Below are positions 354 to 22,213 of a stretch of DNA of 27,673 bases, in pieces. Made by a program: the position numbers and the translations under genes. Within the stretch, counting starts at the first letter, position 1. Each line of letters opens with the position of its first letter. Under the pieces are notes generated by a model. That model was not told the DNA's origin, made no database searches, and was given only the letters and a program-made list of their open reading frames with translations. The stretch comes from a virus, in IMG/VR virus record IMGVR_UViG_3300017917_000559, positions 1 through 27,673 of that record; one strand, given 5' to 3'.

Positions 354-1199
354 CTATCTGCGTATTTCACTTAGCCGATTCCACTGGTCATTGGATACCC
401 GAATGTCCTGTTGCTCAAACCATTCTCGGCCCAGGTCCTGGTCCATGGCATAACAGGTTAAAAATTGATGTGTAAAGAAATTTAATTCTTGAATTGGAGT
501 GTGTATATCATAAGGAGCATACTGAGTCAATTTTAAATCCTGCCCTAATACATGAGCTTTGAAATTTTCAATTAATTCCCATTCACTGACTTCAATGCTG
601 TCAGAACATTCGTACTTGTTGTGTAGAAGTGCCAGTGTGGTATGGTGTTGTGCTTCGATATGCCGACGTAGTTGTTCAAGTACCAATCGGTGCATGGTTC
701 TAAAGGCAGGATTGCTTACACAAACCTGTTGACCGTTACGGTGTAATCCAGGATGATCTATGCCCAATAACCATTGAACATACTCGTTTTGTAATTGTGT
801 TTGGCGCCCAAAGTTAGGAACGCTGTAAGGAATATCGTCTGGATCAACACCATGTAAGAATACAATATCTCCATCGGTGAAAAACCATTCGGTTTCATCG
901 ATAACTGTATCCAGGTGCAATTTGATTATTTGTTGCCGTACCCAGCCGCTGGCAAACTTGTGTGCTTCTTGGATCAAACTGGCTGGTACAACACTGACCT
1001 CTGGAACATATTTGCTGTATAGATCTTGGCAATCCTTACAGTAAGTTGGCCATGCTTTATCGCTCAGATCATCAACCACAATGTAAACTTTCTGTGGCAT
1101 TGAATGATGCTTGATATAGGATTTAATAGTTAGGACTGTTAATAAAAAATGCCCTGGGTAAGTTAATATTACCAAGGGCATCTGTTGAGTTGACTTCAA
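354..1199 (-). CDS. Glycosyltransferase-like protein (GT-A type, DUF6492-like)
   Basis: The product is 281 residues if translation starts at the TTG at 1199, which has TAGGA six bases upstream. The first ATG is at 1181 and has no good ribosome binding site. The N-terminus (VILTYPGHFLLTVLTIKSY) has the look of a Rossmann-like nucleotide-sugar fold opening. GWVRQQIIKLHLD (residues 85-97) followed by WFFTDGDIVF, with the DGD of a DxD metal/nucleotide-sugar site at 109-111, fits small phage and bacterial glycosyltransferases of the DUF6492 type. Substrate and acceptor are unknown; virion decoration or host surface modification are both possible. The first codons lie inside a strong terminator hairpin (1141-1181), so expression probably depends on read-through from the 584-residue gene upstream. 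Confidence 0.55.
   Translation of the reverse strand: MKSTQQMPLVILTYPGHFLLTVLTIKSYIKHHSMPQKVYIVVDDLSDKAWPTYCKDCQDLYSKYVPEVSVVPASLIQEAHKFASGWVRQQIIKLHLDTVIDETEWFFTDGDIVFLHGVDPDDIPYSVPNFGRQTQLQNEYVQWLLGIDHPGLHRNGQQVCVSNPAFRTMHRLVLEQLRRHIEAQHHTTLALLHNKYECSDSIEVSEWELIENFKAHVLGQDLKLTQYAPYDIHTPIQELNFFTHQFLTCYAMDQDLGREWFEQQDIRVSNDQWNRLSEIRR
1141..1181 (-). terminator. Rho-independent terminator overlapping the start of the glycosyltransferase-like gene
   Basis: On the minus strand ATGCCCTTGGTAA (1169-1181) pairs with TTACCCAGGGCAT (1149-1161), 12 of 13 positions, around a 7-base loop, and is followed at once by TTTTTTATT (1141-1149). This is a classic intrinsic terminator 20 bases after the stop of the 584-residue gene. 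It also encodes the first residues (MPLVILTYPGH) of the next gene. Confidence 0.8.
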
Positions 1200-2962: not shown

Positions 2963-2969
2963 TATTTAT
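2963..2969 (-). promoter_or_regulatory. T4-type late promoter 7 bases before the ATG
   Basis: GATAAATAA on the minus strand includes the stop codon of gp17 and lies 7 bases before the ATG of the 584-residue gene. In T4 the late TATAAATA box sits near -10, so transcription would start at or within a base of the ATG, giving a leaderless message. No ribosome binding site is visible, which fits. Confidence 0.45.
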
Positions 2970-4531
2970 CGCATAACGGATATGAACGGCATTGGAGCAA
3001 CAATCACATCACCGTGGTCGCGTAGCTGATTATCAATGCCTGTGTCGTAGGTTTGTAGCAACTGCAACATGCGAATAGTCAAAATACAGGCCATAACTAG
3101 GTCATCTGTTTCGCCAGGTTTTGCAGCATAAGTTACTCCACTTGCTACAAAGGTTTTTAGCTCTGAAACCAGGGCACTGCTTCGTACCTTCATTTTTCCA
3201 GTTTCTATTAGAGTTTTTAGTTTATTACAAGCTGCCAGCTTTGGCTTGTTGCTGGTATTGAAACCCTTGCGGTATCTGCGGCTACCTCCTCCGCCGGGCT
3301 CACTTAGGAAATAGCCCTGTATGTTTTCTTCTCCGTATTCAGCAATACTGATAAGTGCGGCTTCGCCAATGGTGTTGTTTTCAATACTGAAATATATGCT
3401 CTTTGGGTCATTGACTGTTTCGTTGATGTGTCGACAAATATCTGCTAGAATTCTAACCTGTTCAGGAATCGGTGTGCGATTGTGTCGCCATTCGGCAATT
3501 TGTTCTGTGGTGTTGGCTTCAAACACTTGTATAGCTGCTGGGTCTCCTCCAGTACCAAGACTAGGATCCAGAGCCACTGTGTAAATGCGTCCTTCTTTGG
3601 GACGACTGTACCAACGCACCTGCCCTGTTTTGTACAAGGGTTCGTGTCCTTGTAGATCAATAAGTTTAGCAGGAGCAATAAGTGTTTCGTCGTTGATGAT
3701 AAACTCACAGCCCATCTCACGACGGAAACGATCTTCGCCTAGTTGTGCTCGCTGTTCAGTGGCCCACTGCTCATCACGATCTGGATGTTCGTTCCAGTAT
3801 GATCGGTAGGCTTTGAATCCGTTGATTCCTAGATCCATCGGATTACCATAGCTATCTTCGCACTTGTTAGCGCCTTTCCATAACAAGGCAAACTGATCTT
3901 CGTCTGAGTTTGGTGTGCTTGTAATAATTGCCTTACCACCAGTTGCCAGTGTAGGACTAATAGAAGTCCAGAACTCTTTGGCGATACCGGGTCGCACGAA
4001 TGCAAACTCGTCTGCGTACAGGAGTGATATGGACATACCGCGTCCTGTGTTTTCAGTTGTTGTTGCTGATACAATACGACTTCCGTTTTCAAAGTCCAAG
4101 TTACCTTTGTTGTAACTGGTGCAACCTGCACGAATATGATCTGGACACAGTTCATAAGCATAGCGAATACGTTGCATGATCTCTTGTGATCCGGTGTACT
4201 TGTGCGCGGCAATAAGAATTGTACTATCAGGAACAAACATAGCATACCACAACAAGTAACCAGCGGCACTGGTACTCTTACCTGTTTGTCGAGGCATCAT
4301 ACTGATTGAGAAACGATAGTTGTGATAAGTGTGTATCAGGCGTTTTTGATATTCAAACGGGTGATACAACATCTTGCCCTTGGTAGGATGCTGAATATAG
4401 AAAAAATGGTCCATGAAATATTCTGGACCCGTGACAGGATCAGCACATTTCAAGAACTCATCAAGTTGTTCTGGAGTAAATGTTTGTTTCTTGTAGGGTG
4501 TTTTAACTAGTGCTGGTTCGTTACTGGCCAT
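2966..4531 (-). CDS. 17: Terminase large subunit (gp17-like packaging ATPase and nuclease)
   Basis: The product is 521 residues (T4 gp17 is 610). It translocates DNA into the prohead through the portal and cuts the concatemer. The Walker A loop is MMPRQTGKST (78-87) and Walker B is ISLLYADE (168-175), followed by a TSTPNSDED coupling-motif region near residue 205. The C-terminal RNase H-like nuclease shows VALDPSLGTGGDPAAI, then FSIENNTIGEAAL, and ends with GETDDLVMA, giving the expected acidic metal ligands. The small subunit gp16 is encoded 11 kb away at 15623-16123 rather than next to it as in T4. There is no Shine-Dalgarno sequence; a late-promoter variant (ATAAGTA, 4539-4545) lies 7 bases upstream of the ATG. 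Confidence 0.95.
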   Translation of the reverse strand: MASNEPALVKTPYKKQTFTPEQLDEFLKCADPVTGPEYFMDHFFYIQHPTKGKMLYHPFEYQKRLIHTYHNYRFSISMMPRQTGKSTSAAGYLLWYAMFVPDSTILIAAHKYTGSQEIMQRIRYAYELCPDHIRAGCTSYNKGNLDFENGSRIVSATTTENTGRGMSISLLYADEFAFVRPGIAKEFWTSISPTLATGGKAIITSTPNSDEDQFALLWKGANKCEDSYGNPMDLGINGFKAYRSYWNEHPDRDEQWATEQRAQLGEDRFRREMGCEFIINDETLIAPAKLIDLQGHEPLYKTGQVRWYSRPKEGRIYTVALDPSLGTGGDPAAIQVFEANTTEQIAEWRHNRTPIPEQVRILADICRHINETVNDPKSIYFSIENNTIGEAALISIAEYGEENIQGYFLSEPGGGGSRRYRKGFNTSNKPKLAACNKLKTLIETGKMKVRSSALVSELKTFVASGVTYAAKPGETDDLVMACILTIRMLQLLQTYDTGIDNQLRDHGDVIVAPMPFISVMR

Positions 4532-4537
4532 GGTATT

Positions 4538-5653
4538 TTACTTATCGGCCAATTCGGGCCAGAGTCGACTAAATTGCCCTTGTTGATCTGGGTGATACGT
4601 AGACTCAATTTCTTCTATATGCTCTAGAAATTCCTTATGCAGATATTGTTTTTCTCCTGCGATTGCATGTTGAAAAAACTCTTGTTCGTTGGGCAAACAC
4701 AATCCCGATTCTAACAATCTATTGATTTCTTTACGAGCTAGATCAAACACATTTGGGCCAAGATTTTGTGGATCTAAGTATTCAGGTTGATATAGGCTTT
4801 GCCAGTGTATGCTTAGTCCACGGTTACGAGCAAACTCAGTAAACTCTACCAGGCGTGTGGCATTATAGATGTTATATACAGCATGGATACCGCCCCAGTG
4901 TCCTTGGGTTTTCATTAGGTCCTGTATGAGATCAAGATTGTGCAATAACTTGTTCCAGGTAGCACCGTGTCTAACATATTCAAAACGTGTGCCCACATTG
5001 TCAAAGCTGATCGACCAGCCTACTCGAGAGCGTGTGGCTAACTTTTTAAAGATTCGATTAGATTCTAAGTCTACACTGCCGTTGGTGATTAATGTTACTA
5101 TTGCATCCTCAGGAATAACATCCAAAAGTCTTTCGTTTTCTGGCAACAATAGTGGCTCGCCACCGACCAATGCTACTTCTTTGATGTAACGTCGATGTCC
5201 TTCAAGGTACTCGCATACTTGATCATAGTAAGGACGAGCTCCAGACTTAACTGGTATACTTTTTAATGCGGCCCACTTTGAACTACACTTGTCGCCGCAA
5301 TAGTTGCAACTTAGATTACAGGTTGTGTTCCACCGCACATCAATCAAGACAGGATGATGATCTAGGTCAGAAACTGTAGCCGGATCAAAGTCCGGATTCA
5401 AATTGTTGTGCCAATCGCGTTCACTGCGACCATAGCGTTCAGCCTTGACACAGTTAGAGCAATACTCATGAGGCTCACCGCGACGTAATGTTTGTCTGAT
5501 TTCCTGCATCACCGGTCCATGTAGCACTTCTGTGATTGAACGCTCGTTGAGATTACCCAGCATGTTAGGATCGCCGGCACAACAAGTTTTGATATCACCT
5601 CTGGGATTGATATGCAGGCCCCGCCAAGGAGCCGCACAGAAGAATTTGCTCAT
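4538..5653 (-). CDS. Radical SAM protein with an N-terminal SPASM/twitch-like cysteine domain
   Basis: The product is 371 residues. The 4Fe-4S SAM-cluster motif CNLSCNYC (CxxxCxxC, 112-119) is present. GGEP (164-167) is the SAM amino-group binding motif, and the strand TLITNGS (188-193) follows. Before the barrel lies a cysteine-rich segment: CAAPWRGLHINPRGDIKTCC (6-25) and CSNC (65-68). This is the arrangement of twitch/SPASM-type auxiliary cluster domains, here at the N-terminus. Enzymes of this kind modify peptides or other small substrates, but the substrate here cannot be inferred. It sits between a secreted nuclease and terminase, reads in the same direction, and probably has its own promoter (5660-5688). 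No Shine-Dalgarno sequence is seen near its ATG. Confidence 0.85.
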   Translation of the reverse strand: MSKFFCAAPWRGLHINPRGDIKTCCAGDPNMLGNLNERSITEVLHGPVMQEIRQTLRRGEPHEYCSNCVKAERYGRSERDWHNNLNPDFDPATVSDLDHHPVLIDVRWNTTCNLSCNYCGDKCSSKWAALKSIPVKSGARPYYDQVCEYLEGHRRYIKEVALVGGEPLLLPENERLLDVIPEDAIVTLITNGSVDLESNRIFKKLATRSRVGWSISFDNVGTRFEYVRHGATWNKLLHNLDLIQDLMKTQGHWGGIHAVYNIYNATRLVEFTEFARNRGLSIHWQSLYQPEYLDPQNLGPNVFDLARKEINRLLESGLCLPNEQEFFQHAIAGEKQYLHKEFLEHIEEIESTYHPDQQGQFSRLWPELADK

Positions 5654-5659
5654 ACTGTA

Positions 5660-5688
5660 ATTATGAGCGGTTTACTGTCCTAAGTTAA
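5660..5688 (-). promoter_or_regulatory. Candidate sigma70-like promoter for the radical SAM gene, leaderless spacing
   Basis: On the minus strand TTAACT (5683-5688), a 17-base spacer and CATAAT (5660-5665) match the -35 and -10 consensus at 4/6 and 5/6. Only six bases (TACAGT) separate the -10 box from the ATG at 5653, so the predicted start falls on the A of the start codon. The promoter overlaps the 3' end of the nuclease gene. Confidence 0.45.
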
Positions 5689-6382
5689 ATCTCATTCCAG
5701 TTGCCTGCTCAATTTGAACCATCGGAACTTGATATTTTGGCAGGTCGGCTACAGGTAGTGGAGCATTGGGCATTAGGTAAGCCATGACTCGACCTGAATT
5801 CTTTTCAATGATGATCTTGTACAAACGAGTTGGGACGCCTAAGCCATTGCCTACTACAGGGTGTTCGGCATCATAGATACCACCCGAAATGATGTAGAAA
5901 TCTGTACCAGGTGCAGTGGCCCATTGGCGTTCCCAAGTTTCTAACTGTTTCCAGATACCACGATTGTTGTTGGCCACTTGTGCTACCATGTTTGATAGAA
6001 AAAAACTTTCACTCATAATCTGATCATTTTGTGTGTTGTTACCAGCAGGACTCATATGACCACGGTCATGTGTTTTACCCAATACAGCATAATCTGCTAG
6101 TTGTGCTTGGCAGTTAGGAGTTACTTGTGGATCAGGACGGAAATTGTCTTTGCGTTTGCTTGGACCTGTCATTGCCGGCACGGTCAAATGCTCAAATACC
6201 GCCACAGGAGCCTTGACTGAACAACGGTGAATCACTGCGTAATTTGTTTTACACAATTCTTGATCGCCTGGTTGTGCTTGATACTGCGGTGTGCCATTGA
6301 CTGTGAATTGTGGGCACTGCTGATTGATACCAGCAAAAGCCAACAAAGGTGTAAAGAGTAATGCTAATAGTAGTTTTTTCAT
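5672..6382 (-). CDS. Secreted DNA/RNA non-specific endonuclease (NUC1, DRGH family)
   Basis: The product is 236 residues with a clear signal peptide: MKKLLLALLF then TPLLAFA, with likely cleavage after residue 17. DRGHMSPAGN (106-115) is the DRGH active-site motif, with His109 as the probable general base. The following FFLSNMVAQVANNNRGIWKQLE region (127-148) supplies the metal-binding Asn and the conserved W..LE of the Serratia nuclease family. Five or more cysteines in the mature part suggest disulfides and an oxidising location. The enzyme would act in the periplasm or outside the cell. It is encoded directly after the tail-fibre-like gene with a 12-base gap and no obvious Shine-Dalgarno sequence (A-rich TATAATAAAAACTAAA before ATG). 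Its role could be digestion of extracellular or competing DNA, or nutrient scavenging; this is inference. Confidence 0.88.
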   Translation of the reverse strand: MKKLLLALLFTPLLAFAGINQQCPQFTVNGTPQYQAQPGDQELCKTNYAVIHRCSVKAPVAVFEHLTVPAMTGPSKRKDNFRPDPQVTPNCQAQLADYAVLGKTHDRGHMSPAGNNTQNDQIMSESFFLSNMVAQVANNNRGIWKQLETWERQWATAPGTDFYIISGGIYDAEHPVVGNGLGVPTRLYKIIIEKNSGRVMAYLMPNAPLPVADLPKYQVPMVQIEQATGMRFNLGQ

Positions 6383-9460: not shown

Positions 9461-9760
9461 TTAAGGTTGGTAGTAGACTACTTCGCCCGTTACAGGATCA
9501 AAGTACAGTTGATTTAGACCTGCTGTACTAGAAACTACACGCACATTTCCCAAGAATGTATTGGCACCGTTGCTGGAAATTACCAAGTTCAAGTTACCAT
9601 TGGTATTGCCGATGTAAATTTGACTGGTGTTGGGATTTACTGTCATTTCGCCAGGACGAGCATTACCGTTGTAATTGGCTACAGTTTCCTGTGCGTTGTC
9701 CTTCATTACTGTGCGTGTTATGCCAGTAATGTTGGCATATGGTGGGGGAGGATTAGCCAT
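9461..9760 (-). CDS. Small structural-type protein, 99 residues
   Basis: No named family is recognised. RPGEMTVNPNTSQIYIGNTNG (36-56) and LYFDPVTGEVVYYQP at the C-terminus are beta-rich motifs like those in phage fibre and capsid-decoration proteins. A related WWDPTTNSFYYSDG phrase occurs in the large fibre. Its ATG overlaps the stop codon of the capsid-targeted gene upstream (TAATG). The AAAGGA inside that gene's last codons is the likely ribosome binding site, so translation is probably coupled. Confidence 0.65.
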   Translation of the reverse strand: MANPPPPYANITGITRTVMKDNAQETVANYNGNARPGEMTVNPNTSQIYIGNTNGNLNLVISSNGANTFLGNVRVVSSTAGLNQLYFDPVTGEVVYYQP

Positions 9761-10143
9761 TATCTACCGTATCCTTTAAACGCCTTTACGGGACTAACTG
9801 TATCGGTTCCAGGAGGTTCTTGACTGTCGGTGGTGCCAATGAGTTCTTTGCCGCCGGCTGTACCAGTTAATTTAAGTGCAAGATCAATAACATCTTCCAC
9901 ATTGTCATTAAAGCCGGCCACAATGGCATTTTGTCCAAAAGCACTTTGATCTGTAAATGGTGGAAAGCCGCTAGTGTCCCCGCCAATTTCAGCTCTAGCA
10001 CGAGCAATAGCAACACCCAATCTTAGTGTGTGGTAGGCGTCGTTGTTTTTGATTCCTGGAATTATGTAAGTGTGTTGTAAAGGATTACTTTGGCCAGGAT
10101 CTAATTCAGCCTTCTGCTCCGTAATAAACTCGCGAGCTCTCAT
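9760..10143 (-). CDS. Capsid-targeted internal protein, paralogue A (MRAREFITE...SPVKAFKGYGR)
   Basis: The product is 127 residues. The N-terminus MRAREFITE resembles the T4 capsid targeting sequence (MKTYQEFIAE type) and contains I-T-E, a site of the kind cut by the gp21 prohead protease. The centre (HTYIIPGIKNNDAYHTLRLGV, then GFPPFTDQSAFGQNAIV) aligns by eye with the genes at 10140 and 10828. The C-terminus is VSPVKAFKGYGR. By analogy with T4 internal proteins it would be carried in the head core, trimmed and packaged with DNA. It overlaps the upstream gene by 4 bases (ATGA). The function after packaging is unknown. Confidence 0.75.
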   Translation of the reverse strand: MRAREFITEQKAELDPGQSNPLQHTYIIPGIKNNDAYHTLRLGVAIARARAEIGGDTSGFPPFTDQSAFGQNAIVAGFNDNVEDVIDLALKLTGTAGGKELIGTTDSQEPPGTDTVSPVKAFKGYGR

Positions 10144-10541
10144 TTTCCATAGCCCTTGAATGCCTTTACTGGACTAACTTTAACTACTTCGGGCATTTCT
10201 TCACTTTTCATTGAGCCGACTTGTACAGCATCACTCGGGGCCATGCCCATAGATTTGAGTGCATCATGTATATAATCAACCACGTGTGGATCATAACTTA
10301 CTACAATTTCATTTTCGCCAAATTCAGATTCTCGACCATCAAATGGCGGAACACCGTCCTTGGCACGTTGCGCAGCACCTTTGGCGCCAGCAATGGCCAC
10401 ACCAAAGCGATACTGTAGGTATGGATCTTGATTTTTCAGTTCAGGAATTTTGTATGCACCAGGAAGAGCACGGCCTACGTCATAGGTAATTGAACCTGTG
10501 CGGCCATCTATATCTTCACGGATAAATTCTCTAGCTCTCAT
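10140..10541 (-). CDS. Capsid-targeted internal protein, paralogue B (MRAREFIRE...SPVKAFKGYGK)
   Basis: The product is 133 residues. It has an N-terminal capsid-targeting-like MRAREFIRE with an I-R-E protease site. The core shares GAYKIPELKNQDPYLQYRFGVAIAGA, then VPPFDG, GENEIVV and a YIHDALKSMG helix with paralogue A. It ends in VSPVKAFKGYGK. Codons for the shared N-terminal motif differ from those of its neighbours at synonymous positions, so the motif is kept by selection rather than by recent copying. The stop overlaps the next start (ATGA), and AAGGGC within the FKGY codons is placed as the ribosome binding site of the next gene. Confidence 0.75.
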   Translation of the reverse strand: MRAREFIREDIDGRTGSITYDVGRALPGAYKIPELKNQDPYLQYRFGVAIAGAKGAAQRAKDGVPPFDGRESEFGENEIVVSYDPHVVDYIHDALKSMGMAPSDAVQVGSMKSEEMPEVVKVSPVKAFKGYGK

Positions 10542-10831
10542 TCACAGTTCCAACGACGGCGTGCTTTACAAATTGCTTTGTCTGGAGTTTTAGCACAGCT
10601 AATATTGTGCATTTTCATTTGACCTTTACTGCGTGAGCAATAGCTCTTACGACGCTTAGACGCCTTTGAGCCTTTCTTTAACTTACCAGGTTTAGTAGTC
10701 ACAGCAGTTTGTAGTTTACTACCAGGATGTTCACGACGATAGGCCTTGACAGCCTTACGACTCATGCCATCTGTCTTGTCACGCTTGTTGGCCTTTTGCC
10801 AATCTTCTACAATAAATTCACTTGCTCTCAT
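10538..10831 (-). CDS. Capsid-targeted basic Cys-containing protein (DUF6321-like)
   Basis: The product is 97 residues and very basic. The N-terminus MRASEFIVEDW is capsid-targeting-like with I-V-E. The rest (GMSRKAVKAYRREHPGSKL, then KRRKSYCSRSKGQMKMH, CAKTPDKAICKARRRWNC) matches my memory of small phage proteins with an RKSFCxR...RRWNC signature (DUF6321 type). Four cysteines may bind metal. Unlike its neighbours it lacks the SPVKxFKGY ending. A basic protein carrying a capsid-targeting signal suggests a DNA-condensing or DNA-binding internal head protein, which is inference. It overlaps both neighbours by 4 bases. Confidence 0.75.
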   Translation of the reverse strand: MRASEFIVEDWQKANKRDKTDGMSRKAVKAYRREHPGSKLQTAVTTKPGKLKKGSKASKRRKSYCSRSKGQMKMHNISCAKTPDKAICKARRRWNCE

Positions 10832-11226
10832 CTTGGGTATCCTTTGAATCCTTTAACAGGACTTACTTTTCCTACATACTCTGGTTCAGTACTACGATTG
10901 TCTGTTAGCTTTGTAACTCTACCTGCGCCAACTGACTTTGCAGCGGCATTGATAATTTCTAAGTCGGCATCACTATAAGTGGCCAATAGTGGGTCGCCAG
11001 CAAATGCTCCTGCTGGTGGTGTAGGATAATCAGGTGCACCAGCCATGGCAATACCAAAACGCCACTGAGTATAAGGACTGCCACCTTGCTTGGTCATACT
11101 GATGTCAGGCATGCTGATAGCACCCTTGATAGCACTGTAATGAGACTTTGGCAATTTATGGGCTTTGGCTGGCACATCGGCAGCACTGCCATATCGCGTT
11201 TCTGTGATAAATTCTTGCGCTCTCAT
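10828..11226 (-). CDS. Capsid-targeted internal protein, paralogue C (MRAQEFITE...SPVKGFKGYPR)
   Basis: The product is 132 residues. It has MRAQEFITE at the N-terminus with an I-T-E site, a core with GSPYTQWRFGIAMAGAPD, a YSDADLEIINAAAKSVGAG helix and an RSTEPEYVGK acidic linker, and a C-terminal VSPVKGFKGYPR. The order of elements matches paralogues A and B (tyrosine-arginine helix, proline-rich loop, amphipathic helix, SxEP linker, tail). It probably arose by duplication, but the proteins have diverged strongly. It starts one base into the stop of the Ntn-hydrolase-like gene (TAATG) and overlaps the next gene by 4 bases, with AAAGGA in its FKGY codons serving as the next ribosome binding site. 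Confidence 0.75.
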   Translation of the reverse strand: MRAQEFITETRYGSAADVPAKAHKLPKSHYSAIKGAISMPDISMTKQGGSPYTQWRFGIAMAGAPDYPTPPAGAFAGDPLLATYSDADLEIINAAAKSVGAGRVTKLTDNRSTEPEYVGKVSPVKGFKGYPR

Positions 11227-12101
11227 TATATGTCTTTCATGTTCATATGGCCAAACGGCGGATCACCTTTGGTGTTCTGCCATAAAGCACGATTGCTTAG
11301 TATCTCAACCCATACATTGGTATTGGGACGATTAAGCGACCAAAAATCAAATTCCAAATGACTGCTGATCGGACGACAATACAGCGTTCTTTCGCTGGGC
11401 ACACACAGTTCTTGACTGGTTGTGCGCATTTTCTTACGCTCAGTACTCATTCTCATTATATTTAGCTGTGGATCGTTGATGTAGACTTGACATAGGCCAT
11501 CTACTAGATCCTCAGGATCTTCGGCAGCTGCCACTACTGCTTGGGCTTGTAACAGGCGACTTTCACTGCTGATTCTACTGAGTGTTTCGCTAGCATTGGA
11601 TTCTTTGCGTTGATATCCAGCATCAGGTATCCAAATGCCATGATTGGTTCTGGCTACCAGTTCTGTTTTGGGTATTTTTTTAGCCACGTACTTGTAGGGT
11701 TTGGTATTATCCCAATCTGACGCTTCGATCAAGAACATGTTGTCACGATCAAATACTATTGTGCAACCGCCCATGCGTCGTTTGATAATGATCTTTGCGG
11801 CTTCTGCGGCTGTGTCTTTTAATAGTGCTTCGCTAATGGTTCTTCCGTCTGGACTGGTGTCAGCGGTGCCTGCTTCGACTTCGCTTTCGTCATCATACAC
11901 GTCAAGACTGGTGTTCAGGATACTGACGCCATGACTGTTGATGCCTTCTTTGTAGCCGGTGATTTGATCGTGCATCATCATGCGTTCAACACCGTCGTCG
12001 TTGGATTCAATAAAATTTAATACAGGAGTGTAGTTACGGTCTCGATTTTTGGCGCCGACCCACCCAATACCGTCAAAGTATTTTGCGACAATAATACACA
12101 T
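11226..12101 (-). CDS. Ntn-hydrolase-like protein (choloylglycine/C45/NRDE type)
   Basis: The product is 291 residues. It begins MCIIVAKYFD, so removal of Met would leave Cys as an N-terminal nucleophile. GAKNRDRNYTP (16-26) is placed like the RNMD of choloylglycine hydrolases and the NRDE of TANGO2-type proteins. KEGINSHGVSILNTSL (51-66) matches the G-N-x-x-G-x-x-x-x-N strand of the Ntn fold, and RTNHG (around residue 150) matches the TNH of C45 acyltransferases. The likely chemistry is amide-bond hydrolysis or acyl transfer; the substrate is unknown. It lies within the capsid-targeted cassette with 1-base spacings but has no targeting sequence itself. The SD-like AAAGGC lies in the final codons of the preceding gene. 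Confidence 0.7.
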   Translation of the reverse strand: MCIIVAKYFDGIGWVGAKNRDRNYTPVLNFIESNDDGVERMMMHDQITGYKEGINSHGVSILNTSLDVYDDESEVEAGTADTSPDGRTISEALLKDTAAEAAKIIIKRRMGGCTIVFDRDNMFLIEASDWDNTKPYKYVAKKIPKTELVARTNHGIWIPDAGYQRKESNASETLSRISSESRLLQAQAVVAAAEDPEDLVDGLCQVYINDPQLNIMRMSTERKKMRTTSQELCVPSERTLYCRPISSHLEFDFWSLNRPNTNVWVEILSNRALWQNTKGDPPFGHMNMKDI

Positions 12102-12102
12102 T

Positions 12103-12483
12103 TTAACGCTTGTAGCCTTTAAATGACTTTACTGGACTTGTGGCGTTGGTGCCGTCGGTTTCGTGACTGCCGTTTGATATTTGTTCTTGCGGCTTCATCT
12201 TGAGTTTTTTCATAATCGCTTTGAGTTTTTTGCGATCATACTCAGTGTAAGCACTGAACACAGGTAGATTACCAAAGAAACCAATGTCATCTACCTTGTC
12301 AATTTGATCTGGGTCCATACCGGCTAGAGAACATGCTCGATAAAAGTCGTAGTAACGACCCCAGTAAACATCGCCGTTGCCGCCGGGGGCAACTAGGCCA
12401 GGGTGTGCTCTTTCAAATTCGTGAGCAGGAGCAGATCTAGTTCCGCCACGACTACCTTCGGCGATGAACTCGCGGGCTCGCAC
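12103..12483 (-). CDS. Capsid-targeted internal protein, paralogue D (GTG start, ...SPVKSFKGYKR)
   Basis: The product is 126 residues starting at GTG (12483). The encoded N-terminus, read with fMet, is MRAREFIAE, the copy closest to the T4 targeting sequence, with I-A-E as protease site. The body differs from paralogues A to C: YWGRYYDFYRACSLAGMDPDQ, GFFGNLPVFSAYTEYDRKKL and a lysine-rich helix KAIMKKLKMK. It still keeps the order of helix, aromatic loop, helix, linker and ends TSPVKSFKGYKR. It is the first gene of the cassette and follows the 163-residue structural gene by 2 bases. The GTG start may lower its yield. Confidence 0.72.
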   Translation of the reverse strand: MRAREFIAEGSRGGTRSAPAHEFERAHPGLVAPGGNGDVYWGRYYDFYRACSLAGMDPDQIDKVDDIGFFGNLPVFSAYTEYDRKKLKAIMKKLKMKPQEQISNGSHETDGTNATSPVKSFKGYKR

Positions 12484-14985: not shown

Positions 14986-15594
14986 TTATCCTCTTGGGTT
15001 GGCACCAGTGGCTGGACGTGGTGGGCGTTTAACTTTGGTCATTGGGCTTGAAGTACCCATTGGTAAATCGTTTGTTGTTTTAGCTGGCGGAGTCTTGCCA
15101 CCGGCCACTGTGAAGTCACTGCGATATGAATTCTTCAACACAGCATGCTCATCGTATGGTGCTGAATAATCTTTACTGAGTGCTTTCTGTTCTGCGTTAG
15201 GAGCAGGATAGTCTGTGTCGGTCAACAGGTCTTTGTTTTCATCTTCAATGCGCTCGCGCTCACGATCCATGCCTTCTTCATGTGGTGTGGTCAACATGAT
15301 GATGCGATTTGGGTCGAGGAATAACAGTTGTGCCAACTGTTTGATCTGTGGTTCGATAGCTGGATAACGGAATTCAACATCCATAGATGTTACTGAATCG
15401 TTTGAGTGTTTTGGAAAGTCTGCTGGTTTGAGTTGCACTGGAGTAGTTTTTGTAGAACCCCATTTGACAATGTCAAACTGTTTGCATTTTTCTTCTAACT
15501 GTTTGATCCAACCGGCGTCAACTTCACCTACAATTTTGATTCTGTAGTTGTATGTGCGCTCAGATTCTGCCAGATATTGTTGAAAATTTTTCAT
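14986..15594 (-). CDS. Capsid-targeted protein with T4-style leader MKNFQQYLAE
   Basis: An upstream in-frame start exists at 15672, but ATG 15594 is preferred. It has AAGGA 7 to 8 bases before it, a TATAAATA late promoter just upstream, and it yields the N-terminus MKNFQQYLAESE. That closely matches the T4 capsid targeting sequence (MKTYQEFIAE) with an L-A-E protease site. The 202-residue product continues with a small alpha/beta domain (YNYRIKIVGEVDAGWIKQLEE, KCKQFDIVKWGSTKTTPVQ, DVEFRYPAIEPQIKQLAQLL) and then a disordered proline-rich tail. An internal or core head protein is the best guess. It lies between gp16 and the 666-residue gene. Confidence 0.75.
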   Translation of the reverse strand: MKNFQQYLAESERTYNYRIKIVGEVDAGWIKQLEEKCKQFDIVKWGSTKTTPVQLKPADFPKHSNDSVTSMDVEFRYPAIEPQIKQLAQLLFLDPNRIIMLTTPHEEGMDRERERIEDENKDLLTDTDYPAPNAEQKALSKDYSAPYDEHAVLKNSYRSDFTVAGGKTPPAKTTNDLPMGTSSPMTKVKRPPRPATGANPRG

Positions 15595-15613: not shown

Positions 15614-15621
15614 TATTTATA
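15614..15621 (-). promoter_or_regulatory. T4-type late promoter, exact TATAAATA
   Basis: GAGTATAAATATAG on the minus strand contains the full T4 late consensus octamer. It sits 19 bases before the ATG at 15594, with AAGGA in between, in the overlap of the 3' end of gp16 and the upstream region of the capsid-targeted gene. Confidence 0.7.
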
Positions 15622-18898: not shown

Positions 18899-21800
18899 TT
18901 AAACTACCGCAGCATTAGCAATAGTACCTGTGGCTTGGATACGCACTGGAATGTAGATAAACTCAACAGCTTTCACTGGCTCGATAGCAATATCAACATA
19001 AAGTTCGTTGCGGTCAATCGTAGCAGGACTATTATTACTCAAGTCACAAACAACCAAGTAATCATAGATACCACGTTTAGCAACAAGGTCAATCATCAAA
19101 CTGGTACAAGCACTCTGAATAGAATTACGTGTAATTTGATCGTTTGGTTCAAACAGGTATTGTTTAGCAATTTCGTTCAAACGATTACGCAAGAATGCTA
19201 CCAAACGTGCCACGTTAATGCGATCCAACGCACTTGTGATACTTGTTGTGGTCTTGTTACCAAAGTTAGTAATACCAACACCCGGAACAAATGTGATTGG
19301 ATTTACACGGTTAGTGTAAAGTACATCACGCAGGCCTTGATTTACACCCAATGTTGTAAATTCACCGGTTGTAGCATTGATATAACCAATTTGTGCAGCA
19401 TTGTCAACTACACCGCGGCGTGTACCAGCTGGAGCCAACCATGGATATGCTACTTCATCGCTACGGATGATTGTGCGTACCATCATGTGACTTGGTGGCT
19501 GTACCACTGGGTTACCTGAAAGGTCTGTAGTTTGGCAACTTGGATAGAAAGCACCTGCATAAGCATCGCCTACCAACAAGCCATCGCCTGAAGTCAATCC
19601 TACACCGTTGTTGTTGGTAGCCCAGTTAACAATTTCTGCTGGGTCTAAACGCAACGGAGTATCAACTACAACAAATGCTGTGTCGCCACGCTCGTTATTG
19701 AGTGCAACCATGTTAGGTGCCAACTCAGGATACTGTGGGCAAGCAATCAAGTTAAACTGTGCTGTTTCTTCACGAATTTGAACACTTGTATCAATGCCGG
19801 TCTTGAGTGCTTTAACAATCAAGGCACGCTGAGCTTGACGACCCATGTATGGTGAACCGTCGTTGCGATTACCACTGGCTGTTACCCAAGCATTAGTTTG
19901 CTGTGGCAATGACTGATCTGGGAAGTCAGTAGAATTAAAATAGTCAGCTTGGAAGCTCTTGACGTTAAATCCTGAACGGCGTGTGTTGAACAACAATGTT
20001 CCTTGTGGATATAATGCAGGATCCGGAGCATCTAAGTCCAAGTAATCGCTTACCAACAAACTTGTAATAGTTGGAATTGGATCTGTGATTGGGTTGGTTG
20101 TACCGTTAGGTGCCCAACGTGCATCTGCAAATACAATACCATTGCTGGTTGTTTGATCTGTGTTGTCAATTTGTACCCACTGTGCTACACCATCAACGTT
20201 GGTCCAGCGACTGATCACTGGATAGTTTTCCAAGTCACTGGTGTTGATCCACAAGTCACCAAATTGCAACGGACTTTGATTTTCATCAGTCTGTGTCATT
20301 GGTGCTGAAGTACTAAAGATTGGACCTGTAGCATTAGTCAATGTCAGGTTCTCGCCGCGAACGTCATTGGTTACCATTTGATAACCCATCCATGCGCCTT
20401 CGTTCTGAATCATGATATCAGCGTTGTTTGTGGCAGCACTGTAGTACCATAAACGACCATTAGCTGGATCTTGATCTGGTGCTGTTTTACCTGCTGTGTA
20501 AGTAAATGTCGGTGTGCTTACCCAATTACTCATTACCAAAGTAGCACTGTCTGTGCCAATACGTACACCACGAACGCTGGTGTTAAATCCAGCAGTAGCA
20601 ATTGGAGTACCTGTGCCAAGACCAGTTATAATACTACCACCTTGTGTATGTGTAAGCACAAGATTGCCAGCACTGTTGATATTTGCAAAAACATAAGGAA
20701 CGTTGGCAGCACTAACTGCTGATACGAAGTCACTAGTTGTTCCTGAACCACCAATTGTAACAGTAACCGGTGTACTATAAGTTGAAGATCCAGCTGCACT
20801 AGCAGACAATGTAAAGGTGTTGCCTGGTGTAAATGGAGTTTGTGTTGGTGTAAATGCAACACTACCTGTGATTATAGTTTCACCTGCGGCATAACGCTCA
20901 TAAATCTCAAATCCTGCTGTTGTTGGCATTGAGCCATCGTTTGGAGTAGGATTGATCTGTGCATAGGTAGAACCAGCTGTAATAAACTGACCACCACCGC
21001 TTGGATCTAAAGCATAATCAGCAGATGCATCATTTGTGTACACTGGGCATTTTTGTAATACAAATGTTCCAAGTGTGCTGTTGTATTTCTTAACACTTAG
21101 GTTTGTACCAAGGTTAACACTGTTGGTTTTGATCCAAACAGAACCTGTTGGCTCTGGTTGAGTATCTGTAGTTCTCCAACGTGGTGCTTGATAACTTGCA
21201 CCTGCAAAATATTCAGGAGCATAATATGTACCAGCAGTGATACCCAATGCAGTCAATGGTGTACCTGTGCCGTTTTGAATGTGAACAATACCTTCGCCGC
21301 CGGTACTACCGTCAGCTGTTGCTGTACTGTCAGCATAGATACTTAATTTTCCGCCGATGTTAGCAGCATAAACACCAGTGATAGCAGCTGTGTTAATTGC
21401 AGCAGCCAAGGCAGTAACAGTAGTCCAACCCGCTGGAATTGTTGTTCCGTTGATAATAATAGTGTTGGTATTAGTTAAACTAGATGGTGCTAATGTGCCT
21501 TGAATAGTTGCCCAGGAAGTTTTCCATTCATCACTACCAACCAGTACCCAAGTATTGTAAAGGTCACTTAAGGCAGTAGCAGTTGTTTGACTAGCAGTAG
21601 GACCGCCGCGCTTGTAATAGATAGGATTGTAAATGCTAGTTGCAACTACAGCATAGTTACCAATGCTGGCAACACTTTGCAATGGAACAGTACTGCTAGG
21701 TTCCAAGTCATCAGTGTTGGTGATTACATAAGGAATTGAATTGGTAAATGCCGCAGTGGTTTGATTCCACTGGAAAATACCCCAGAGTGAACTGGCTGTA

Positions 21801-22213
21801 TCTAACCAGTAAGTACCGTTGGCAGGAGCACCTGTTGGACGAACTAGTGTTGCTGTAAGTTCAGCAAGGTCAATGTCTACACGTTGTACATAGCAACGAT
21901 TACTGATACCCAAGGCACTGTAAGCTGCCAATAAGCCGTATTCGTTAAGCTCGTAACCGTTGATCGGTGTACCAGTTGTGGTTTGATAAAAGAACGGTAC
22001 GCCGTAGGTAGCGGCCAAATCACGTTGACTTGTTATCAAATATACTTTGTTAGCGTTAGCTTGAAGTGTGCCGGCTGCTATACCAGTGCCTGTTCCTGAA
22101 ATCTTGTTAGACGCTGTGGCCAACAAAATATAAGGTACGCTATTGGTAGCGGCTGGAATATATTGACTTTGGTCAATGATCGAAACTTCTACGCCTGGGG
22201 ATACTAATGCCAT
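18899..22213 (-). CDS. 18: Contractile tail sheath protein (gp18)
   Basis: The product is 1104 residues; T4 gp18 is 659. The N-terminus (MALVSPGVEVSIIDQSQYIPA) and the C-terminal core (INVARLVAFLRNRLNEIAKQ, FEPNDQITRNSIQSAC, then DIAIEPVKAVEFIYIPVRI) are characteristic of sheath proteins. The extra length lies in the middle. Residues about 248-326 (NTIIINGTTIPAGWTTV ... LTALGIT) and 464-543 (ITGLGTGTPIATAGF end) look like two flagellin-hook-like insert domains, expected to project from the sheath surface. A late promoter CTAAATA lies 27 bases upstream and AAAGGA is the ribosome binding site. Confidence 0.95.
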   Translation of the reverse strand: MALVSPGVEVSIIDQSQYIPAATNSVPYILLATASNKISGTGTGIAAGTLQANANKVYLITSQRDLAATYGVPFFYQTTTGTPINGYELNEYGLLAAYSALGISNRCYVQRVDIDLAELTATLVRPTGAPANGTYWLDTASSLWGIFQWNQTTAAFTNSIPYVITNTDDLEPSSTVPLQSVASIGNYAVVATSIYNPIYYKRGGPTASQTTATALSDLYNTWVLVGSDEWKTSWATIQGTLAPSSLTNTNTIIINGTTIPAGWTTVTALAAAINTAAITGVYAANIGGKLSIYADSTATADGSTGGEGIVHIQNGTGTPLTALGITAGTYYAPEYFAGASYQAPRWRTTDTQPEPTGSVWIKTNSVNLGTNLSVKKYNSTLGTFVLQKCPVYTNDASADYALDPSGGGQFITAGSTYAQINPTPNDGSMPTTAGFEIYERYAAGETIITGSVAFTPTQTPFTPGNTFTLSASAAGSSTYSTPVTVTIGGSGTTSDFVSAVSAANVPYVFANINSAGNLVLTHTQGGSIITGLGTGTPIATAGFNTSVRGVRIGTDSATLVMSNWVSTPTFTYTAGKTAPDQDPANGRLWYYSAATNNADIMIQNEGAWMGYQMVTNDVRGENLTLTNATGPIFSTSAPMTQTDENQSPLQFGDLWINTSDLENYPVISRWTNVDGVAQWVQIDNTDQTTSNGIVFADARWAPNGTTNPITDPIPTITSLLVSDYLDLDAPDPALYPQGTLLFNTRRSGFNVKSFQADYFNSTDFPDQSLPQQTNAWVTASGNRNDGSPYMGRQAQRALIVKALKTGIDTSVQIREETAQFNLIACPQYPELAPNMVALNNERGDTAFVVVDTPLRLDPAEIVNWATNNNGVGLTSGDGLLVGDAYAGAFYPSCQTTDLSGNPVVQPPSHMMVRTIIRSDEVAYPWLAPAGTRRGVVDNAAQIGYINATTGEFTTLGVNQGLRDVLYTNRVNPITFVPGVGITNFGNKTTTSITSALDRINVARLVAFLRNRLNEIAKQYLFEPNDQITRNSIQSACTSLMIDLVAKRGIYDYLVVCDLSNNSPATIDRNELYVDIAIEPVKAVEFIYIPVRIQATGTIANAAVV

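Follow-up and report, generated by a model that had tools for sequence, protein, structure and literature searches.

Internal protein IPIII of bacteriophage T4 carries a ten-residue capsid targeting sequence (CTS), which is cut at L/I-x-E and in which residues 4 (Tyr) and 7 (Phe) serve in targeting (PMC9026906). In phages phiKZ and SPN3US, a gp21-like protease removes the propeptides of head proteins, cutting behind a short x-x-E motif (PMC5694885). Here we describe a nine-residue N-terminal leader, M-R-A-x-E-F-[I/V/L]-x-E, carried by five small genes of the IMG/VR virus record IMGVR_UViG_3300017917_000559 and by many genes of related phages. The stretch analysed, positions 1 to 27,673 of that record, is referred to below as the window, and represents a structural region of a T4-related myovirus. 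Independent sequence tests support the leader well as a candidate T4-type propeptide that would target proteins to the capsid and be cleaved off, and we assign this reading a probability of about 0.86.

The leader in the window and in related phages

A preliminary description of the window pointed out five gene starts of the form M-R-A-x-E-F-I-x-E, and exact matches are indeed present at 10143, 10541, 10831, 11226, and 12483, all on the minus strand. When the whole window was scanned with the DNA pattern RTG-MGN-GCN-NNN-GAR-TTY-ATH-NNN-GAR, these five matches were recovered, versus none in 100 dinucleotide-preserving shuffles. The five open reading frames (ORFs) encode 127, 133, 97, 132, and 126 residues, respectively, and overlap or nearly touch their neighbours. 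They lie in one dense run from 12483 down to 9760 that also holds an untagged Ntn-hydrolase-like gene. Four of the five proteins form one paralogous family, termed family A, with a shared body and a C-terminal tail (SPVKxFKGYxR). The features of the run are as follows.

12103–12483, minus strand: family A copy 1, 126 residues, GTG start, leader MRAREFIAE, tail SPVKSFKGYKR
11226–12101, minus strand: untagged gene starting Met-Cys, with a weak match to AAT (acyl-CoA:6-aminopenicillanic acid acyltransferase, an Ntn-hydrolase; PF03417, E=0.0012), under the curated cut-off
10828–11226, minus strand: family A copy 2, 132 residues, leader MRAQEFITE, tail SPVKGFKGYPR
10538–10831, minus strand: DUF6321 protein, 97 residues, leader MRASEFIVE followed by DWQKANKRD
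10140–10541, minus strand: family A copy 3, 133 residues, leader MRAREFIRE, tail SPVKAFKGYGK
9760–10143, minus strand: family A copy 4, 127 residues, leader MRAREFITE, tail SPVKAFKGYGR
12457–12483, minus strand: leader of copy 1
11200–11226, minus strand: leader of copy 2
10805–10831, minus strand: leader of the DUF6321 protein
10515–10541, minus strand: leader of copy 3
10117–10143, minus strand: leader of copy 4, resembling a capsid-targeting propeptide, with the cut predicted after codon 9
9762–9799, 10142–10179, 10830–10867, and 12105–12142, minus strand: repeat D1, coding for the C-terminal tail (SPVKxFKGYxR)

Kinship of the four family A proteins is evident even with leader and tail stripped: a body-only profile hidden Markov model (HMM), built from a family that includes the window's own proteins, gives E-values of 4e-33, 5e-25, 5e-23, and 6e-20, and the DUF6321 protein (0.26) is not matched. 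This HMM was rebuilt on bodies, as its first version picked up leader-only matches. The cassette consequently consists of four members of one family and one DUF6321 protein, rather than of varied internal head proteins as had been proposed. The Ala codons of the five leaders (GCT, GCT, GCA, GCG, and GCC) are as reported, and their differences agree with the idea of selection on the protein motif; however, the window alone cannot serve as proof, since four of the proteins are paralogues. The shared N-terminus could be a product of paralogy, and evidence from outside the window was therefore needed. All four codons for Ala occur among 223 tagged genes, and those for E, F, I, and R vary as well. 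Position 7 of the leader is I in 99, V in 26, and L in 11 cases (n=136).

The search of other phages suggested in the preliminary description returned matches to an ATG-initiated MRAxEFIxE in at least 120 stretches of IMG/VR, where the permuted motif MRAxFEIxE occurs 10 times in all. The reversed leader pattern has zero occurrences in 20 contigs. From the fetched loci we gathered 242 distinct leader-bearing proteins, using a pattern slightly wider than MRA. Beside family A, these proteins fall after removal of the leader into 26 body clusters (by single linkage, with one chained cluster of 53). The leader is thus portable: related phages, including many jumbo phages, carry it on numerous unrelated bodies. 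Tagged proteins with matches over the cut-off include an ADP-ribosyltransferase (L152:6643–7242; ADPrib_exo_Tox, PF03496, E=9.5e-13, 48.4 bits versus a curated cut-off of 23.4), GNAT acetyltransferases (L191 and L159), and GH19 hydrolases (L128 and L123). Matches to ART-PolyVal (4e-6) and Kinase-PolyVal (3.5e-4) fall under the cut-off. Tagged genes are often grouped, with five in a row in L076 (2414–6636, plus strand), three in a row in L152 (minus strand) and in L105, and five in L155 (minus strand). The groups of three to five tagged genes in L076, L155, and L152, mostly of unknown function, resemble effector cassettes. An AlphaFold2 model of one such protein (L076:4901–5791) had a mean predicted local distance difference test (pLDDT) score of 55 and was not used.

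The prohead protease and its candidate sites

According to the preliminary description, capsid targeting would be refuted if phages without a gp21-type protease also had the motif. Each of the nine leader contigs of 150 kb or more has exactly one S77 protease match over the cut-off. Leader contigs below this size are fragments, and an S77 match is present in one of 74 kb and absent from one of 149 kb. Of five contigs tested, three encode a gp23-type capsid protein, and in both of those inspected a gp22-like scaffold is its neighbour. The genes of G001 and G002 are ordered portal, acidic protein, S77 protease, scaffold-like protein, and capsid protein. The head genes of T4 follow the same order.

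The capsid protein of G001 has [ILV]xE at residues 7, 19, 34, and 42 and next only at 389. In the G002 protein, the called ORF of which begins approximately 22 residues early, the motif is at 29, 41, 56, and 65 and then at 411. The scaffold carries 23 such sites in approximately 370 residues, versus 11 in approximately 600 residues of the portal. These capsid and scaffold sites suggest that the S77 protease of the same phages would have [I/L]-x-E specificity. Such a distribution is expected if the protease trims the propeptide off the capsid protein and breaks up the scaffold but leaves the mature shell intact. The leader, too, has this motif at its end.

Bodies that share the prohead with an active protease should avoid [IL]xE. 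The ratio of observed to expected [IL]xE is 0.31 for family A (bootstrap 0.16–0.47), 0.96 (0.82–1.10) for the other tagged proteins, which are a more varied group, and 1.24 (1.18–1.29) for G001 and G002 control genes. No avoidance is seen for the reversed motif, with ratios of 1.15, 1.15, and 1.17, respectively. Together with the unrelated bodies, the S77 protease, and the capsid and scaffold sites, this avoidance supports the proposal that the leader targets proteins to the capsid and is cut after I/L-x-E.

By analogy with T4, the leader would dock the newly made protein on a gp22-like prohead scaffold core, around which a shell of gp23-like protein would then close. The S77 prohead protease would cut after [I/L/V]-x-E, so that the body would be left free in the head with the genome. 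Targeting, cutting, packaging, and ejection of the tagged proteins are inferences.

Bodies of the cassette and alternative explanations

The body-only HMM finds 152 family A stretches, of which 146 carry the leader. Of the other six, two are truncated by the end of a contig, one has an incomplete leader because the contig starts there, one is a fusion, and two are members without Glu9, MRASEFISAQLME and MRAREFVSAVLSE, in which L-x-E occurs 4–5 residues further on. Mature family A proteins are approximately 13 kDa and of mixed charge, with a median isoelectric point (pI) of 8.1. Structure prediction, also suggested earlier, yielded for copy 3 an AlphaFold2 model of a mainly helical small body (mean pLDDT 85), the leader being modelled at low confidence (approximately 60). 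Family A has no Pfam match and one weak PHROG match; tblastn found no cultured homologues, profile searches found none in PA5oct, Phosso, Atu_ph07, Vibrio 2.275, or T4, and the fold has no PDB match and one uncultured-phage relative in BFVD. The family A body lacks sequence or fold similarity to the T4 internal proteins IPI, IPII, IPIII, and Alt (Pfam, T4 profile search, and PDB), and the bodies of the tagged proteins do not belong to the T4 internal-protein families.

The preliminary description recognised no function in the cassette apart from one DUF6321-like member. That match stands (10538–10831; PF19846, 5e-9, 37.1 bits versus a curated cut-off of 28.5), but the kinship of the other four bodies had been overlooked. 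The mature part of the DUF6321 protein has a pI of 10.7, a net charge of +22, and four Cys, and its strong basicity makes it most likely a DNA-associated internal protein. T4-like cyanophages encode the same basic domain, which starts with DWQK..K.D.TDGMS. There, however, the domain forms the C terminus of a larger protein (376 and 473 residues in the two that were read), whereas in the window it is stand-alone and tagged. In cyanophage B23 the junction reads ISIVE-DWQKVNKKD, as compared with FIVE-DWQKANKRD in the window. In cyanophage MA01 Glu also precedes DWQK, but without I/L (FHE). One cut point may serve both architectures.

What the leader does can be judged by two alternatives to capsid targeting. 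The shared N-terminus might reflect mere common descent of paralogues and have no targeting role, in keeping with the paralogy of four of the five window genes. We consider this highly improbable: the DUF6321 protein and approximately 26 other body clusters carry the leader without detectable body homology, L-x-E lies nearby where Glu9 is lost, and the bodies avoid the motif. Paralogy alone was rejected, because the leader is common to unrelated bodies. The leader might otherwise signal docking to the tail, to replication or to a nucleus-like structure, or N-terminal degradation. The missing Tyr4 of the T4 signal would fit such a role, which is nevertheless unlikely given that the capsid propeptide and the scaffold share the [ILV]xE signature, that the motif resembles those of T4 ipII and ipIII, and that the leader is found in phages with an S77 protease. 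Two further features of the window enter here; the leader of the second had not been mentioned in the preliminary description.

15614–15620, minus strand: ATAAATA, a T4-like late-promoter core located upstream of the structural run to which the cassette belongs; on the minus strand it next occurs at 2969
14986–15594, minus strand: structural protein of 202 residues from the ATG at 15594, with the T4-style leader MKNFQQYLAE, which contains L-x-E

Several observations weigh against a T4-type capsid-targeting propeptide. Compared with MKTYQEFIAE, the leader is shorter by one residue and has no Tyr4, a targeting residue in T4 IPIII (PMC9026906); Phe7 of T4 is kept as Phe6, but Tyr4 has no equivalent, position 4 being variable. 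No protease, capsid, or portal gene was seen on the 27.7-kb window, which is a fragment. The nearest cultured relatives do not carry the strict leader (PA5oct, Atu_ph07, and Vibrio 2.275; Phosso has one off-motif match). A homologue of the MKNFQQYLAE protein is a virion protein of PA5oct detected by mass spectrometry, but it starts MKSFRDYYDAS and has no L-x-E there. In L030 (5777–6511, plus strand), a family A body is fused to the C-terminal side of a metallopeptidase-like domain (HELVH); this protein has I-Y-E where the two parts meet and lacks the standard leader. Many loci were retrieved by the leader pattern itself, and the depletion of [IL]xE in family A concerns one homologous family rather than 111 independent observations. 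Enrichment of the late-promoter motif ahead of tagged genes was rejected, as the motif (19 of 238 tagged genes) is no commoner there than at other large ORFs (158 of 828), with 52 occurrences in 7350 random 60-mers.

If the leader is a capsid-targeting propeptide, a separate question is what its passengers do. The preliminary description took the cassette to encode packaged proteins that are possibly injected for host takeover or to counter defence. T4 IPI and Alt are precedents (PMC9026906, PMC9503650), and in related contigs the leader occurs on ADP-ribosyltransferase, GNAT, and polyvalent-type domains. The idea of diverse injected effectors fits tagged genes elsewhere (ADP-ribosyltransferase, GNAT, and GH19), and such variable proteins are likelier injected effectors than is this cassette, for which it is doubtful. 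Family A has neither an enzyme match nor a known fold and is core-like rather than variable: among 15 contigs, exactly two adjacent copies are present in 11, three in one, a single copy in one (a fragment), and none in two. Slightly favoured is a role of family A in the prohead core or in assembly, like that of T4 gp67, gp68, and IPIII, with maturation in the head and no function in the host. The conserved adjacent pair, the short overlaps, and the position inside a structural run agree with this, as does the influence of IPIII on T4 head assembly (PMC9026906). Against it stand the copy number, which reaches four in the window, and the avoidance of protease sites in bodies, whereas the scaffold is rich in them, so that family A probably stays in the mature head and is not destroyed. 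Because the pair is strictly kept inside the structural run, a core internal head protein is favoured over a changing anti-defence protein, and we regard family A as most probably a conserved core protein of the head interior that is used as a pair.

Phage-injected proteins are normally known only from virion mass spectrometry of cultured phage. There is perhaps an even chance that MRAxEF[I/V/L]xE is a tag that reveals from sequence which proteins uncultured T4-like jumbo phages package and deliver into the host. The delivered set would include ADP-ribosyltransferases, acetyltransferases, kinase-like proteins, and GH19 hydrolases, as well as a majority of proteins of unknown function. If so, early effectors would become predictable in many uncultured phages, and the old question of how general T4 capsid targeting is, and what it requires of a leader, would become testable. 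In the open-access literature, where short sequences search poorly, no previous description of the MRAxEFIxE leader came to light.

Neighbouring genes and comparison with known systems

The neighbours of the cassette include a tail sheath gene (18899–22213) and a T4-type large terminase gene (2966–4531), whose closest cultured relatives are in the jumbo phages PA5oct (54%), Phosso, and Atu_ph07. A PDB search with the untagged product of 11226–12101 gave no match; in L005 and L006, a gap equal in size to this gene lies between the flanking tagged genes. A Radical SAM/SPASM protein (4538–5653, minus strand) adjoins the terminase gene. The structural run also encodes a DNA/RNA non-specific endonuclease (5672–6382, minus strand; PF01223, 7e-37), the N-terminus of which resembles a secretion signal, and a DUF6492 protein (354–1199, minus strand; 2.5e-12).

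Seven ORFs of PA5oct contain a looser motif, M[KR][IL]x[ED][FIV]..[LI]xE, and six of them coincide with annotated genes. Five of these six carry the depositors' label for virion proteins detected by electrospray ionization tandem mass spectrometry (ESI-MS/MS), versus 93 of approximately 440 genes overall, a result that is suggestive only because the motif was loosened after the virion list was known. Neighbouring PA5oct genes (MK797984, 260677–262300, minus strand) start MRLNEINLIE, MKILEFNLTE, and MKLSEICILE, and a gene directly after the portal gene (82921–83142, plus strand) starts MKINDIITE. All of these starts possibly represent a related leader in a phage that has been cultured, and most of the proteins concerned are detected by mass spectrometry.

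As a control, a leader pattern with T4 spacing gave three matches in T4, two of which are ipII and ipIII. T4 gp61.1 (54 residues; AF158101, 18966–19130, minus strand) starts MKTFKEFIKE, which is near the IPII/IPIII leader. Propeptides of the T4 internal proteins measure approximately 10–20 residues. The window's leader and the CTS of IPI–III and Alt, which is cut by gp21 (Mullaney and Black 1996, reviewed in PMC9026906), are both short, have a basic-Glu-Phe character, and end in I-x-E, and both occur alongside an S77 protease. In both systems several proteins per phage are tagged, an ADP-ribosyltransferase among them. However, the leader described here begins MRA rather than MKT, its bodies are unrelated to those of T4 and of far more kinds, and the phages reach 525 kb. 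In phiKZ and SPN3US, gp53 and gp54 are likewise diverged paralogues with identical N-termini, but several propeptides there exceed 100 residues (PMC5694885), as compared with nine here. Polyvalent proteins and head-packaged ADP-ribosyltransferases (PMC5512222, PMC9503650) resemble the tagged proteins in that ADP-ribosyltransferase, GNAT, and kinase domains are predicted to be injected. There, the basis for that prediction is fusion to MuF or portal domains and gene neighbourhood, whereas in the phages described here it is an explicit N-terminal tag.

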